In this document: one piece after another, positions 24,196 to 38,236 of the stretch | How positions within the stretch are numbered: position 1 is the first letter of the stretch | Layout: every line of letters begins with the position of its first letter | Origin: Nitrospirota bacterium | Lineage (GTDB): Bacteria > Nitrospirota > Thermodesulfovibrionia > Thermodesulfovibrionales > SM23-35 | NCBI GenBank assembly: GCA_014859105.1 | Contig: JACUUX010000001.1 | Coordinates: 107,315-171,314, forward strand | DNA length: 64,000 nt | Direction: 5' to 3' | Program-made: the position numbers and the translations under genes | The notes under the pieces: model-generated | The model's database searches: none | Told to the model about the DNA's origin: nothing | Seen by the model: the letters and a program-made list of their open reading frames with translations, nothing else

Positions 24196-25023
24196 TTAAT
24201 ATTGATATAGTATCGACAGCTTTGCTCTTTCGGAAGGATTTGCTGTATCTTGCGCATCAACCTCAATTGTGTAGAGATACGGCACAGGGACCACAGATGA
24301 TCCCGGTACAGGTGGGAATCCCGGATCAACCAGCCCCTCGTCCTCACCTGTATTGCCCCAAACTGTATCAACTATCTTTGCATAAGCCGTATATGTTGGA
24401 CTTACACCGAGATTCAGACTCATGTCATATGTGGAAGGGGTTCCATGGGTAATAGTAAGAGAACTATCACAGCCTGTCCAACAGGCTGTTGGCAGATTGA
24501 GCTTGGTAGCCAGATCTGTATAATTGCCAATAGTGATACATGGTGTACCATCTGGAAGAGTAGCAGCTACATTAGTCTGGCATGTTGCAGGTGTTGTAAT
24601 TAAAGGACCGAGGGACGATAAGTCACCCAAAAGGTTATTAACTTTAGATTGCTCTCCCCGCATTCCAATAAACTGATATATGACATCTGCACCGCCTATA
24701 CCAGCCTCAAGTGCTGTTTTATATCTCTTCTCCATGCCCGATATTTGTGTACCGGTCGTTAGCATGTAAATCAACCCTGCCATGATAGCCAGGGCAATAG
24801 CCGATAATATCAGTACCATCACAAGGGCTATGCCTTGGTCAGTAGACAGTAGACGGTAGGTAGTAGACAGGGAATTCTTTTTTTTAGTAGACAGTAGAGA
24901 GTAGACAGTAGACAGGAATCCATTTGTCTTTCCCTGTCTACTATATGCTGTTTGCTGTCTACTTCCTTTGCTGTTTGCTACATGCTGTCTACTTTCCTGT
25001 TTGTATACTTCTGATAAGTCCAT
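24196..25023 (-). CDS. PilX-like minor pilin assembly protein (copy 1), N-terminus extended through repeats
   Basis: GIALVMVLILSAIALAIMAGLIYMLTTGTQISGMEKRYKTALEAG; paralogue of 35966-36634. Confidence 0.75.
   Translation of the reverse strand: MDLSEVYKQESRQHVANSKGSRQQTAYSRQGKTNGFLSTVYSLLSTKKKNSLSTTYRLLSTDQGIALVMVLILSAIALAIMAGLIYMLTTGTQISGMEKRYKTALEAGIGGADVIYQFIGMRGEQSKVNNLLGDLSSLGPLITTPATCQTNVAATLPDGTPCITIGNYTDLATKLNLPTACWTGCDSSLTITHGTPSTYDMSLNLGVSPTYTAYAKIVDTVWGNTGEDEGLVDPGFPPVPGSSVVPVPYLYTIEVDAQDTANPSERAKLSILYQY
24838..25012. repeat. degenerate AGTAGACAG / CTGTCTACT phrase repeats
   Basis: Multiple direct and inverted AGTAGACAG units read in sequence; further units at 25259-25300. Confidence 0.8.
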
Positions 25024-25245
25024 AAAGCATCCTCCCGGCTTCTTCAGTCAGACATGTTAAATCCTTATTGTCTTTTGAATATCCAAGATCTACGGATAGA
25101 ATAAGATAATACCTCAATTCTTCCAAAGAACTCTGACTGATGTTGTAAAAAGGGGAAATCTCTTGTAATTCTATATGTATCTAATACAAGTTTATGCGCC
25201 TTCTTCCAGACTTCTAAATCCTCAAATCTCTTAACCTTTTTATTC
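25024..25245 (-). pseudogene. four-helix-bundle (23S rRNA IVP/S23-type) protein remnant
   Basis: MNKKVKRFEDLEVWKKAHKLVLDTYRITRDFPF then frame change to SLEELRYYLILSVDLGYSKDNKDLTCLTEEAGRMLYGLIRSIQTG; middle missing. Confidence 0.7.
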
Positions 25246-26576
25246 ATTTTTCTTCCGCCTGTCTCCTGTCTACTATCTACTGTTTGCTGTCTACTTTTTT
25301 CTCTCAGATTATTCGGTTTCACAACCAGTGTATACACTTTCCATCTGTAATTTTGCCAGTTAGTTATTCCATTGAGTTTAAAATCTCGCCCTAAAACTGT
25401 CTCTCCGGTACAACTACCGCCCGGTAAATCCGCTGAAAGTTCCCCAACTCTGATAGAACCGGAGGCTACAGGAGGATTAAAGGTAAAATCTCTATCAAAT
25501 TGTCCCTCCTGTGCTAGTATGTATACTCTCACCGCTCTCACACGATCCCGTATATTTTTGGCATCCACTGTAGCTAAAACATCTTCAAGGTCATTTACAT
25601 AACAATTCACTGCGCCATCTGTATCAATATCAATACCATACACTATCTGCATGTCGGCGACACAGTCGAGGAGGGGTAAGATATCCCTCCTTGATCCATC
25701 AGCATGAGCTATAACAGCCTTTCTAAGAACACCTGTGTTAGGGGCACATCTGTCAGGCACATCATCTTGAGCCGGATCGATGTGTGACCTCCAGATATAA
25801 TAATCTGCCCTGTTAAAAGGCATTCGAGGAGGGTTATCATCAGCAGGATTGTTAATGCCATATATAAAACGGGTCTCCGTATCATCTGCAAAACCGTCGG
25901 TAGCATTATATGTTGTATGAAAACCTCCACCGCTGACAACTAAGGATCGCCGGTTTGCATCTGAGGTTCCTGGTGAGAGAACAATCACACGATCGCCATT
26001 AACAAAATTCTCATTTGCAATATCCCAGATCCTTTTCACATCGCCCGTACTCAAGTGTGTCCATCTCCGGGCTGGAGCATTTCTTGCGACATTCGTAGCT
26101 TTTATCACCAGATAATCGGAGTCATTGAAAACAGCATTCGGCCAACCAAAAGTAACGTTATTCCCGCTTATAATTGCCCTCGGTGGGTTATTTGGAGCAT
26201 CGTTGTATACTGCTGCTTCAGCAGCCGATGCCTCCTCATAATTTATGCCTGCAGGAATCACCCATGACAGCCCATATCCTGCATGCTCAATATCTCGTCT
26301 CAATATCTCAAGCCCAATTATGCCTTCTATATCAGTCTCTGCTATCTTGCTTTGCTGTTTGAATTGTGTTAGCAAACCTGTAAATACCTGAGAAGCAGCA
26401 GCCATAACAAGCACAAAGACAACCATTGTTACCATGAGTTCTATTAGGGTAAACCCCGTTTGATTCATGATGCATAATGCACGATACGACCCGATACATG
26501 ATCCACGATTCACGATACATGATAAATACCTGCATCCTGTATCCTGCATCTTGTATCCTTGCCTCTTCGTGCCCAT
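25065..26576 (-). CDS. PilW-like minor pilin (copy 1), 3' end fused to repeat and S23 remnant; likely start MNQTGFTLIELM
   Basis: GFTLIELMVTMVVFVLVMAAASQVFTGLLTQFKQQSKIAETDIEGIIGLEILRRDIEHAGYGL. Confidence 0.85.
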   Translation of the reverse strand: MGTKRQGYKMQDTGCRYLSCIVNRGSCIGSYRALCIMNQTGFTLIELMVTMVVFVLVMAAASQVFTGLLTQFKQQSKIAETDIEGIIGLEILRRDIEHAGYGLSWVIPAGINYEEASAAEAAVYNDAPNNPPRAIISGNNVTFGWPNAVFNDSDYLVIKATNVARNAPARRWTHLSTGDVKRIWDIANENFVNGDRVIVLSPGTSDANRRSLVVSGGGFHTTYNATDGFADDTETRFIYGINNPADDNPPRMPFNRADYYIWRSHIDPAQDDVPDRCAPNTGVLRKAVIAHADGSRRDILPLLDCVADMQIVYGIDIDTDGAVNCYVNDLEDVLATVDAKNIRDRVRAVRVYILAQEGQFDRDFTFNPPVASGSIRVGELSADLPGGSCTGETVLGRDFKLNGITNWQNYRWKVYTLVVKPNNLREKSRQQTVDSRQETGGRKMNKKVKRFEDLEVWKKAHKLVLDTYRITRDFPFLQHQSEFFGRIEVLSYSIRRSWIFKRQ

Positions 26577-27184
26577 TATCTCCTCACAATTGTTGAAATA
26601 GTATGGGTATATGGGTCACCATTAGCCACAGTCTTTTCCTTCCATTCCCATGTAATTTGTATCTCAACCAGTTTGTTATCGTCATTCAAATCATCAATTC
26701 TTTTCATGGATGTAAAAGGAAAATTATTAATATTTCTCACATCCCTTTGAATCGTTGTATCGGCTACAAAATTCCCGGGATTGTTTGGCGCACCATTTGT
26801 ATCTGTCAATAATATATCGTCAAATGAGACATTCCTGTGAGCTGACATTCTCTCATCAGCAATGCTAACCGCCTCATCTCTCAAAATATTTATCATGTTT
26901 GAGTCAATACCTACGAGTGCGGTCTGCATCAGGGCAAGGAAGACCACAAGGGTTACCACAAGGGCAATCAAAACTTCAACAAGGGTGAAGCCTCCGGAAA
27001 ATGGACATAGAAAATTGTCATTGCGAGTGAAACGAAGCAATCTCGCGTTTTTGAAACGAGATTGCCACGCACCCTTCGGGTGCTCGCAATGACAGATAAG
27101 GTTGCTCGTTTGATTGTCTATGTCTATTTTTCGGAAACCTTTTTTATTTAGCAACACAATTATCTGCATTACATGTTCCTCCAT
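26576..27184 (-). CDS. PilV-like minor pilin (copy 1) with MITE-derived insert in leader
   Basis: LLNKKGF[49 aa insert]FTLVEVLIALVVTLVVFLALMQTALVGIDSNMINILRDEAV. Confidence 0.85.
   Translation of the reverse strand: MEEHVMQIIVLLNKKGFRKIDIDNQTSNLICHCEHPKGAWQSRFKNARLLRFTRNDNFLCPFSGGFTLVEVLIALVVTLVVFLALMQTALVGIDSNMINILRDEAVSIADERMSAHRNVSFDDILLTDTNGAPNNPGNFVADTTIQRDVRNINNFPFTSMKRIDDLNDDNKLVEIQITWEWKEKTVANGDPYTHTISTIVRR
26993..27133. mobile_element. MITE-like palindromic element inserted in frame in pilV copy 1
   Basis: Inverted ends CGGAAAATGGACATAGA / TCTATGTCTATTTTTCGG, internal gtcattgcgag...ctcgcaatgac stem, flanked by GAAGCC/GAAACC. Confidence 0.7.
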
Positions 27185-27695
27185 CCGTAATCTTTGTTGT
27201 CAATTTCCCGAGATTTATTCTCGATGCTGAAATCACAATACAGTCATAATCTGCGTCAGCATCGGTGTTACTACATATAGTTTTATTATCATTTGAAAGC
27301 CCCCCTGTAGTAAAACTTATCTCAATGTCCGCTATATTACTCCACGTTATAGGATGATTCGGATTCAGGTCTTTTTGCAGTAAAGGGATTGGGTCGTTGT
27401 ATCCAGCAGGACGGACATTATCTGCTGCGGTTAAATTTCCATCGCCATCAGGCCAGGGGGCGATATCCTCCTGTATTGTATATTGTGTATTCGCAATAGT
27501 AACAAAATGCGCCCTGTTTCTCTGCATTGCCCTTGCCCTTGCATTCATCAGATCAACATACATCTCTTTTATCTCACTTTCAGCCCTGTATTTACCTATC
27601 CAGCCCTGAAACGAAAAACCGAGGGCCACAGCGAGAATGCCAATTATAGAGATAACGATTATAAGTTCGATTAAAGTTATGCCCCTGTTGTTCAT
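27144..27695 (-). CDS. GspH/FimT pseudopilin (copy 1)
   Basis: MNNRGITLIELIIVISIIGILAVALGFSFQGWIGKYRAESEIKEMYVDLMNARARAMQRN. Confidence 0.88.
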   Translation of the reverse strand: MNNRGITLIELIIVISIIGILAVALGFSFQGWIGKYRAESEIKEMYVDLMNARARAMQRNRAHFVTIANTQYTIQEDIAPWPDGDGNLTAADNVRPAGYNDPIPLLQKDLNPNHPITWSNIADIEISFTTGGLSNDNKTICSNTDADADYDCIVISASRINLGKLTTKITDGGTCNADNCVAK

Positions 27696-27743: not shown

Positions 27744-28133
27744 TCAAAATGTTTTGTTCTTTAAAGTTAAAATGCTTGAAGCAAGTATATTCGATAATTC
27801 TTTTGCCTCATTTAGCAAAGGATTTATTTCATTCTCTGGTTTTTTCCCAGAATCTTTTAATAGTGACAACCAAAACTTAGTTTCATTGGCAGATTTTAGG
27901 GCATGATTCAGAAAATTCTTAAAATCCTTTCTCGAACTTGCTGCCTGTGCTTCAACAATATTTGCTCCGATACTTGTGGCACTTCTAAGTAATTGGTCTC
28001 CTATTATCATATTGGCCCTGCAATTAGACAATGTGTCAATAAGTTTTATTGTGCTTAAAGCAAAGCTATATGCCCTTCCTTTTATATTTAATTTTGCGTT
28101 TTGCTCTGTATTTTTAAATTTCTCATTTTGCAT
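27744..28133 (-). CDS. four-helix-bundle (23S rRNA IVP/S23-type) protein
   Basis: GRAYSFALSTIKLIDTLSNCRANMIIGDQLLRSATSIGANIVEAQAASSRKDFKNFLNHALKSANETKFWLSLL. Confidence 0.85.
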   Translation of the reverse strand: MQNEKFKNTEQNAKLNIKGRAYSFALSTIKLIDTLSNCRANMIIGDQLLRSATSIGANIVEAQAASSRKDFKNFLNHALKSANETKFWLSLLKDSGKKPENEINPLLNEAKELSNILASSILTLKNKTF

Positions 28134-36638: not shown

Positions 36639-37823
36639 TCACCTCAGATTATTTGGTTTTACGACTAATGTATATAGTTTCCATCTGTAATATTTATACT
36701 CAGGATCCCCGATCTCAGTTTTAAGGTTTACAAAATCAATAGTTCTTGAATTAGGGCCTAAACTCTCTGTAGCAGATAAATATTCCTTCGAACCACCTAA
36801 TGAAAAATCATAATTAATATCCTTTTGCCCTTCCTGAGCTACTATATATACTCTGACTTCTCTTACCTGCTCCCTTATCTGTTGAGCTGTAAAATCGAAG
36901 ATACTATCTGAAGGCGGCCAATCAATGTTACCGTCTCCATCTGTGTCAAGCCAGAAGGTTACCTGAATATCAGCAACACAGTCGAGAAGGGGAAGTTCAT
37001 CAAGCCCGCCATCATCATGTCTCACCGTAGCTTTGTAAAGTATGCCGGTATTGGGAGCGCATCCCTGCGGCATGGCATCAGGAATCCTGATATAATAATC
37101 TGCCCTGTTGAATGGCATCCTCAACGACGGAACATCGGACCCTGCAACACCATAAACTAGGTGGGTCTCGGCTACACCTGTCGGTGGCCAGGGCGATGAT
37201 ATAATGTTATTATAACTTGTTGAAAAAGATTCTCCGCTGACAACCATCGCCCTTTGATTTCCTGCTCCCCCGGTCTGGAGGACTATTACATTGTCATTAG
37301 GGTTTAGATTTTCGGTTCCGGGTGTCCATTGTCTCGGGTTATATTCATCAGAGAATGACGGGTTGGCCTTCAGCGGGGTCCATTTTTTAGATGTAGAGTC
37401 CCTTGAAACATTAATCGCCTTGATGGCAAGTACATCTGACCCGTACAGCGAAGATCCGTTTCCGCTCCGTATCCCCGCCGGAGGATTAGAGGCTCCGGCG
37501 GAATCGGCGTCTCTGGCCGGGTTATCGGGGGGGCCGTCGTTAAAGTCACTGTCCGCCCATGAAGTTTCAGATATGTTAGCAGCTTCCTGATAGGAAGCTC
37601 CATTCAAGTTCCACGGCAAACCATATCCTGCATGCTCAATGTCCTGCCTCAAAATTTCAAGGCCAACTATACCTTCGATGTTAGTTTCTGCTATCCTGCT
37701 CTGCTGTTTAAACTGTGTTAAAAGCCCTGTAAAGACACCGGAGGCAGCAGCTATGATAAGAACAAAGACTACCATTGTTATCATGAGTTCTACTAAAGTA
37801 AATCCTGCTTCTCGTTTAATCAT
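36639..37823 (-). CDS. PilW-like minor pilin (copy 2)
   Basis: MIKREAGFTLVELMITMVVFVLIIAAASGVFTGLLTQFKQQSRIAETNIEGIVGLEILRQDIEHAGYGLPW. Confidence 0.88.
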   Translation of the reverse strand: MIKREAGFTLVELMITMVVFVLIIAAASGVFTGLLTQFKQQSRIAETNIEGIVGLEILRQDIEHAGYGLPWNLNGASYQEAANISETSWADSDFNDGPPDNPARDADSAGASNPPAGIRSGNGSSLYGSDVLAIKAINVSRDSTSKKWTPLKANPSFSDEYNPRQWTPGTENLNPNDNVIVLQTGGAGNQRAMVVSGESFSTSYNNIISSPWPPTGVAETHLVYGVAGSDVPSLRMPFNRADYYIRIPDAMPQGCAPNTGILYKATVRHDDGGLDELPLLDCVADIQVTFWLDTDGDGNIDWPPSDSIFDFTAQQIREQVREVRVYIVAQEGQKDINYDFSLGGSKEYLSATESLGPNSRTIDFVNLKTEIGDPEYKYYRWKLYTLVVKPNNLR

Positions 37824-38236
37824 TGTCTCCTCAATATAGTATTAATTGCATGTGTATAGGGATTGCCACTAGCAACTGTATTCTCTTTCCATTCCCATGT
37901 AACAGTTATATCGATTTGCTTGTTGTCAGTATTTAGGTCTGTAATCGTTCTGGTTACTGTATATGGAAAATTTTGTATGTTTCTTAGATCTCTAAAAACT
38001 TGTTCTGAATTAATACCTTCCGTTAAACTGTCAAAGTCTCTGTTCCTCGTTTCGCTCATCTTCATCTCGGCTGTGCGTACAGCCTCATCCCTCAGAATAT
38101 TTATCATATTGGAATCTATGCCTACCAGGGCAGTCTGCATGAGGGCAAGAAAAACAATAAGCGCTATTACGAGAGCAACCATTACTTCGACAAGAGTAAG
38201 CCCTTTTTTATTTAACAATGCAATTCTCTTCATCAC
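37820..38236 (-). CDS. PilV-like minor pilin (copy 2)
   Basis: MMKRIALLNKKGLTLVEVMVALVIALIVFLALMQTALVGIDSNMINILRDEAV. Confidence 0.88.
   Translation of the reverse strand: MMKRIALLNKKGLTLVEVMVALVIALIVFLALMQTALVGIDSNMINILRDEAVRTAEMKMSETRNRDFDSLTEGINSEQVFRDLRNIQNFPYTVTRTITDLNTDNKQIDITVTWEWKENTVASGNPYTHAINTILRRQ

Follow-up and report, generated by a model that had tools for sequence, protein, structure and literature searches.

The window analysed here is a 64,000-nucleotide stretch of a draft genome of 148 contigs, the sole genome of its genus in our comparison. On its minus strand, a pilV-like ORF (26576-27184) runs uninterrupted through an insert that lies ahead of the FTLVEV motif opening the mature pilin. 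The features of the locus and of a second pilV copy in the same window are listed below.

26576-27169, minus strand: pilV/gspI-like minor prepilin gene with the insert (copy 1); predicted ATG at 27169, open ORF beginning at 27184
26990-27169, minus strand: leader of 60 aa from the predicted start, 49 codons of which come from the element and the target duplication
26576-26989, minus strand: mature part of the pilin, 137 aa from F1TLVEV on; all 15 family-conserved columns kept
27144-27695, minus strand: upstream GspH/FimT-like prepilin gene (profile matches), overlapping the pilV start
26994-27134, no strand assigned: 141-bp MITE; ends set by the 6-bp target duplications of many relatives
26994-27011, plus strand: left terminal inverted repeat CCGGAAAATGGACATAGA, with 2 differences from the family consensus CCGAAAAATAGACATAGA
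27117-27134, minus strand: right terminal inverted repeat TCTATGTCTATTTTTCGG, identical to the consensus
27016-27094, no strand assigned: core palindrome TGTCATTGCGAG...CTCGCAATGACA, also present in MITEs of the same genome with other ends
26988-26993, plus strand: target-site duplication, copy 1, AAGCCT (AGGCTT on the coding strand)
27135-27140, plus strand: target-site duplication, copy 2, AAACCT (AGGTTT on the coding strand)
37820-38233, minus strand: paralogous pilV (copy 2) without the insert, an empty site by sequence comparison within the window

Start codons are predictions throughout the pilin comparison. For copy 1, a GGAGG upstream of the ATG at 27169 makes this the probable start, and the predicted leader of 60 aa agrees with the length of about 60 aa before G/FTLVEV (the slash marks the predicted cleavage position) given by an earlier, sequence-only reading of the window. 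Originally 11 aa long (MQIIVLLNKKG), the leader now has 60 aa and terminates in ...PFSGG/FTLVEV, the residue preceding the cleavage Gly being Gly, not Lys. The predicted protein has a class III signal, a Gly followed by a hydrophobic helix with Glu5. The N_methyl profile PF07963 matches residues 64-85 just above the cut-off, TIGR02532 also matches above its cut-off, and the best NCBIfam match is gspI, with a score below cut-off. The cleavage motif had been described as duplicated, which holds only nominally: the upstream GF belongs to the target duplication and is followed by RKIDID, not by a hydrophobic segment with Glu5, and it is unlikely to serve as a cleavage site.

The insert is a MITE, being a short multi-copy element with terminal inverted repeats and a target-site duplication and without a transposase. 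The proposal of a MITE inserted in frame at a prepilin cleavage site is thus borne out, since the insert, its inverted ends and the flanking G-F codons are all found in the sequence; of the limits first proposed (26987-27139), the insert itself is real, but the exact element spans 26994-27134. The flanking GGTTTC/GGCTTC repeats exist, although they consist of the 6-bp target duplication and one shared C. The net insertion of 147 bp was correctly recognized: 141 bp of element and 6 bp of duplicated target amount to 49 codons, and the pilV/gspI-like gene therefore stays open. The two 18-bp arms differ at 2 positions and the target duplications are 5/6 identical; a very recent insertion is therefore unlikely. 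The predicted fold of the 141-bp element is far more stable than that of shuffled sequence (z = -7.9), and an Rfam search with it gave no match.

Approximately 40 near-full-length relatives of the element, 137-143 bp long, were found in other genera and families of the order, many of them with exact 6-bp duplications. This spread over many genomes had gone unnoticed in the sequence-only reading, as had the different repeats that occupy the corresponding leader in orthologues. Near-full-length relatives of about 80-87% identity are present in six genomes (G004, G101, G032, G122, G108 and G073), and more distant ones have 76-79% identity. Perfect duplications include CCATAC, TTGATA, TAACAG, TCAAAT, TGGTTT, TCTTTA, TCCTTT, TCCTGG, CCGCCA and CACAAA. 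The exact 18-bp end occurs in 20 of the 176 genomes of the order (reversed control: 0), while two matches to it in viral contigs were judged to be chance. In the host genome, the exact 18-bp end is found only at this element, whose two arms are the sole close matches. The core palindrome, however, is common to MITEs of the same genome with the differing ends CCCAAATCCAGCGATAA, CCCAAATCCCGATATAGA and AATACAAACGCATTAA. In each of these MITEs the arms are complementary to one another, and cores and ends look as if they had been swapped as modules. Six loci of the host genome (L002, L003 and L005-L008) have the same core palindrome and different outer ends, most pairs of which are complementary within a copy. 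Among the near-full-length copies examined, only the copy in pilV has a length that fits the frame and is also open in the pilin frame, whereas most copies contain stops in it, are of the wrong length and lie outside any through-running ORF. This points to a single frame-keeping accident rather than to an element family selected for coding.

In G030, the same terminal end adjoins what remains of an IS1380-type transposase (PF13701), and a block of 85-89% identity with this end recurs in G077 and G150, also with PF13701 remnants. An IS1380-type element of G004 has CCCAAATCCCGATATAGA at its end; this related terminal repeat is used by the MITE L003 of the host genome. An IS1380-type transposase thus probably mobilised the element, as its ends suggest. 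No intact autonomous IS1380-type element with both ends was found among the genomes searched, and the complete IS1380-type genes of G016, G019, G108 and G068 were rejected as partners, as these ends are absent there. IS1380 elements produce target duplications of 4-5 bp, and the 6 bp found here is longer. At about 180 bp from the IS1380-type remnant of G077, a gene (L209, 1053-1994) encodes an IS200-like protein (Y1_Tnp, PF01797) whose C-terminal helix-turn-helix is DnaA-like.

The window itself shows what the site looked like before the insertion: copy 2 reads MKRIALLNKKGLTLVEV at the leader, and its leader, ALLNKKGLTLVEV, has no insert. The empty-site check proposed in the sequence-only reading had the expected outcome, in that the site is empty in copy 2 and in nearly all of the ~70 pilV orthologues of the order. 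Moreover, neither of the patterns that this reading had named as contrary to it was found: the relatives do not have the insert in common as conserved protein sequence, and other copies of the element do have inverted ends. The amino-acid branch of copy 1 is twice that of copy 2 (0.39 versus 0.19, on a tree with low support in places). Relative-rate tests on copy 1 are not significant with the two nearest outgroups and significant with one of the six outgroups used (L237, chi2 9.0); in the dN/dS comparison of the two copies, synonymous sites are saturated.

These data raise the question of whether pilins tolerate a leader of this kind. Among the pilV orthologues gathered across the order, most leaders are about 10-30 aa long by the nearest plausible start, and several contain in-frame repeats. 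The leader of RBG_13_39_12 (G009, locus L075) reads MEVALLNK-TFKSPLPPFTKGGLGGIT-G/LTLIEV and that of G122 MAQTALLNK-IFKSPLPPFIKGGLWGVT-G/FTLVEV; the former contains the repeat KSPLPPFTKGGLGG in frame and the latter a variant of it. The two genomes are not sisters on a weakly supported tree, and their inserts share a junction and may therefore not be independent. In G089, the leader reads MIKRLITPSPSSPPLKGGEVKRLNRKG/DTLVEV and contains the repeat PSSPPLKGGE, and in three genomes of genus g17 (G033, G021 and G109) MITE-built leaders of 84 and 77 aa are found. The leader inserts of the orthologues match repeats of their own genomes, and the g17 leader element is high-copy, with dozens of copies in G033. 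In G061 and G069, a palindromic sequence lies near the pilV leader, but alternative downstream starts are present. No repeat peptide or outsized insert was seen in the 72 mature pilins with a list of hallmark peptides, which is not exhaustive; the mature parts are 119-164 aa long, with one partial sequence of 46. An inverted-repeat scan did not discriminate leaders from mature parts. At L254 of G069 (C122:5451-6585), the pilV leader contains a palindrome, and a further leader with its start (MMERTALLNNKKG) comes after it, as though rebuilt downstream. Repeat-like in-frame extensions also precede GspH-like and PilW-like prepilin sites at L067 (G060), L249 (G089) and L230 (G122), with the sequences SSYLKRREGELRSQRG, NPSFKKRGALFVERGG and STVYRLLSTEKG.

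Genus g17, in which two species share the MITE-built leader of 77-84 aa and another genome (G044) lacks the insert, allows selection on the leader and on the mature part of the same gene to be compared. In the comparison of G033 with G021, dN is 0.091 and dS 0.658 (dN/dS 0.14) for the mature pilin, versus a dN of 0.230 and a dS of 0.235 (dN/dS 0.98) for the leader, in which a 21-bp indel preserves the frame. The leader is therefore constrained in its frame only, and we read this pattern as probable selection for the frame, not for the leader sequence. There is no ATG, GTG or TTG between the insert and the cleavage site, the nearest start being at least 69 codons away, so translation should pass through the MITE. 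The frame of this leader survives by chance in 24% of simulations with 46 substitutions (probability 0.24), and the main evidence is therefore that the mature part following the insert is conserved.

The reading that we prefer, with a probability of approximately 0.7, is that an IS1380-type MITE in a prepilin leader is read through and cut off, leaving the mature pilin unchanged. A non-autonomous MITE of this type would have transposed into AAAAAAGGCTTCACC, the last codons of the leader, copying 6 bp of the target. Translation would begin at the native ATG and proceed through 49 stop-free codons; the 60-aa leader, mostly hydrophilic, should remain cytoplasmic, with the native hydrophobic helix coming next. 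In known prepilins, leader length varies and the peptidase cuts at the cytoplasmic side after Gly or Ala (PMC10191384). In copy 1, the peptidase is still expected to cleave behind the Gly that precedes FTLVEV; the peptide encoded by the MITE would be lost and the mature pilin released unaltered. With the leader cleaved away, its frame, final Gly and topology should be the only leader properties under selection. We infer translation, cleavage and function of copy 1; between a functional gene and a knock-out, a choice that the sequence-only reading did not make, the comparative evidence leads us to favour a functional gene.

A frozen knock-out is unlikely in our view; in that case the insertion would have destroyed the leader in a pilin copy that is redundant, and the frame would be open through chance and the youth of the insertion. 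The second, intact-looking pilV copy in the window could free copy 1 from selection, the branch of copy 1 is the longer one, and frames stay open by chance fairly often, as in the g17 simulations. However, the frame and all conserved columns are intact behind an insertion that is probably not brand new, and working-looking orthologues persist behind similar inserts. Translation might instead start inside the element, at an in-frame TTG 17 codons ahead of the cleavage site, giving a leader of normal length, MLRFTRNDNFLCPFSGG/FTLVEV (17 aa). This is quite improbable, as no ribosome-binding site was found before the TTG, whereas the native ATG has GGAGG; moreover, the distance to the nearest start in g17 implies that ribosomes can read through the insert in that genus, barring initiation at a rarer start codon. 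We give hardly any credence to a domesticated coding palindrome kept for its peptide in the manner of Rickettsia palindromic elements. The element is indeed palindromic, of similar size and in frame inside a protein, but it is the only length-compatible and open one among the near-full-length copies examined, most copies having stops and lying outside through-running ORFs, and the g17 leader has a dN/dS near 1.

Rickettsia palindromic elements were reportedly described by Ogata et al. in 2000 and 2002. They are palindromes of ~150 bp that encode a conserved peptide and lie in frame in many unrelated genes, with apparently viable products (PMC10969869). A tolerated in-frame palindromic insertion is common to both systems, but the MITE family described here has no conserved coding frame, most of its copies are not in a coding frame, and the coding copy sits in a peptide predicted to be cut away. 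With MITEs of insertion sequences (IS1380-type, PF13701) the element shares its short, non-coding, multi-copy nature, 18-bp ends common to transposase remnants and target duplications, while its 6-bp duplications and a core palindrome common to MITEs with different ends set it apart. The long-leader prepilins (type IVb; Streptococcus sanguinis; PMC10191384) likewise combine a long leader, a Gly and a hydrophobic helix with Glu5; here, in contrast, mobile DNA supplies the length (60-84 aa), which orthologues do not share as a conserved feature. In the openly licensed literature searched, we found no report of MITEs lying in frame in signal peptides, those of prepilins included, and no paper on the core palindrome.

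We are inclined to think that, across this Nitrospirota order, mobile palindromes have repeatedly found a safe in-frame harbour in prepilin leaders, where only the frame would be selected and MITEs would contribute a neutral, translated and discarded peptide to functional genes. Such leaders would serve as a clean natural experiment on the amount of sequence that a prepilin leader tolerates, and they would give mobile DNA a route into coding sequence that leaves the mature protein untouched. In the g17 pair, selection on the frame can be told apart from selection on the sequence within one gene. Leader-length filters of pilin finders and trimming to the nearest ATG may misannotate these genes.

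Two further pilin-like ORFs of the window also have added segments. The PilX-like ORF (24196-25023, minus strand) has an N-terminal spacer-repeat extension (SRQQTAYSRQ...LLSTDQ) ahead of its hydrophobic segment. The PilW-like ORF (25065-26576, minus strand) terminates in the initial portion of a protein of the four-helix-bundle (23S rRNA intervening sequence) family, connected via a QQTVDSRQE-type spacer, and a whole gene of this family lies in the same pilin operon at 27744-28133.
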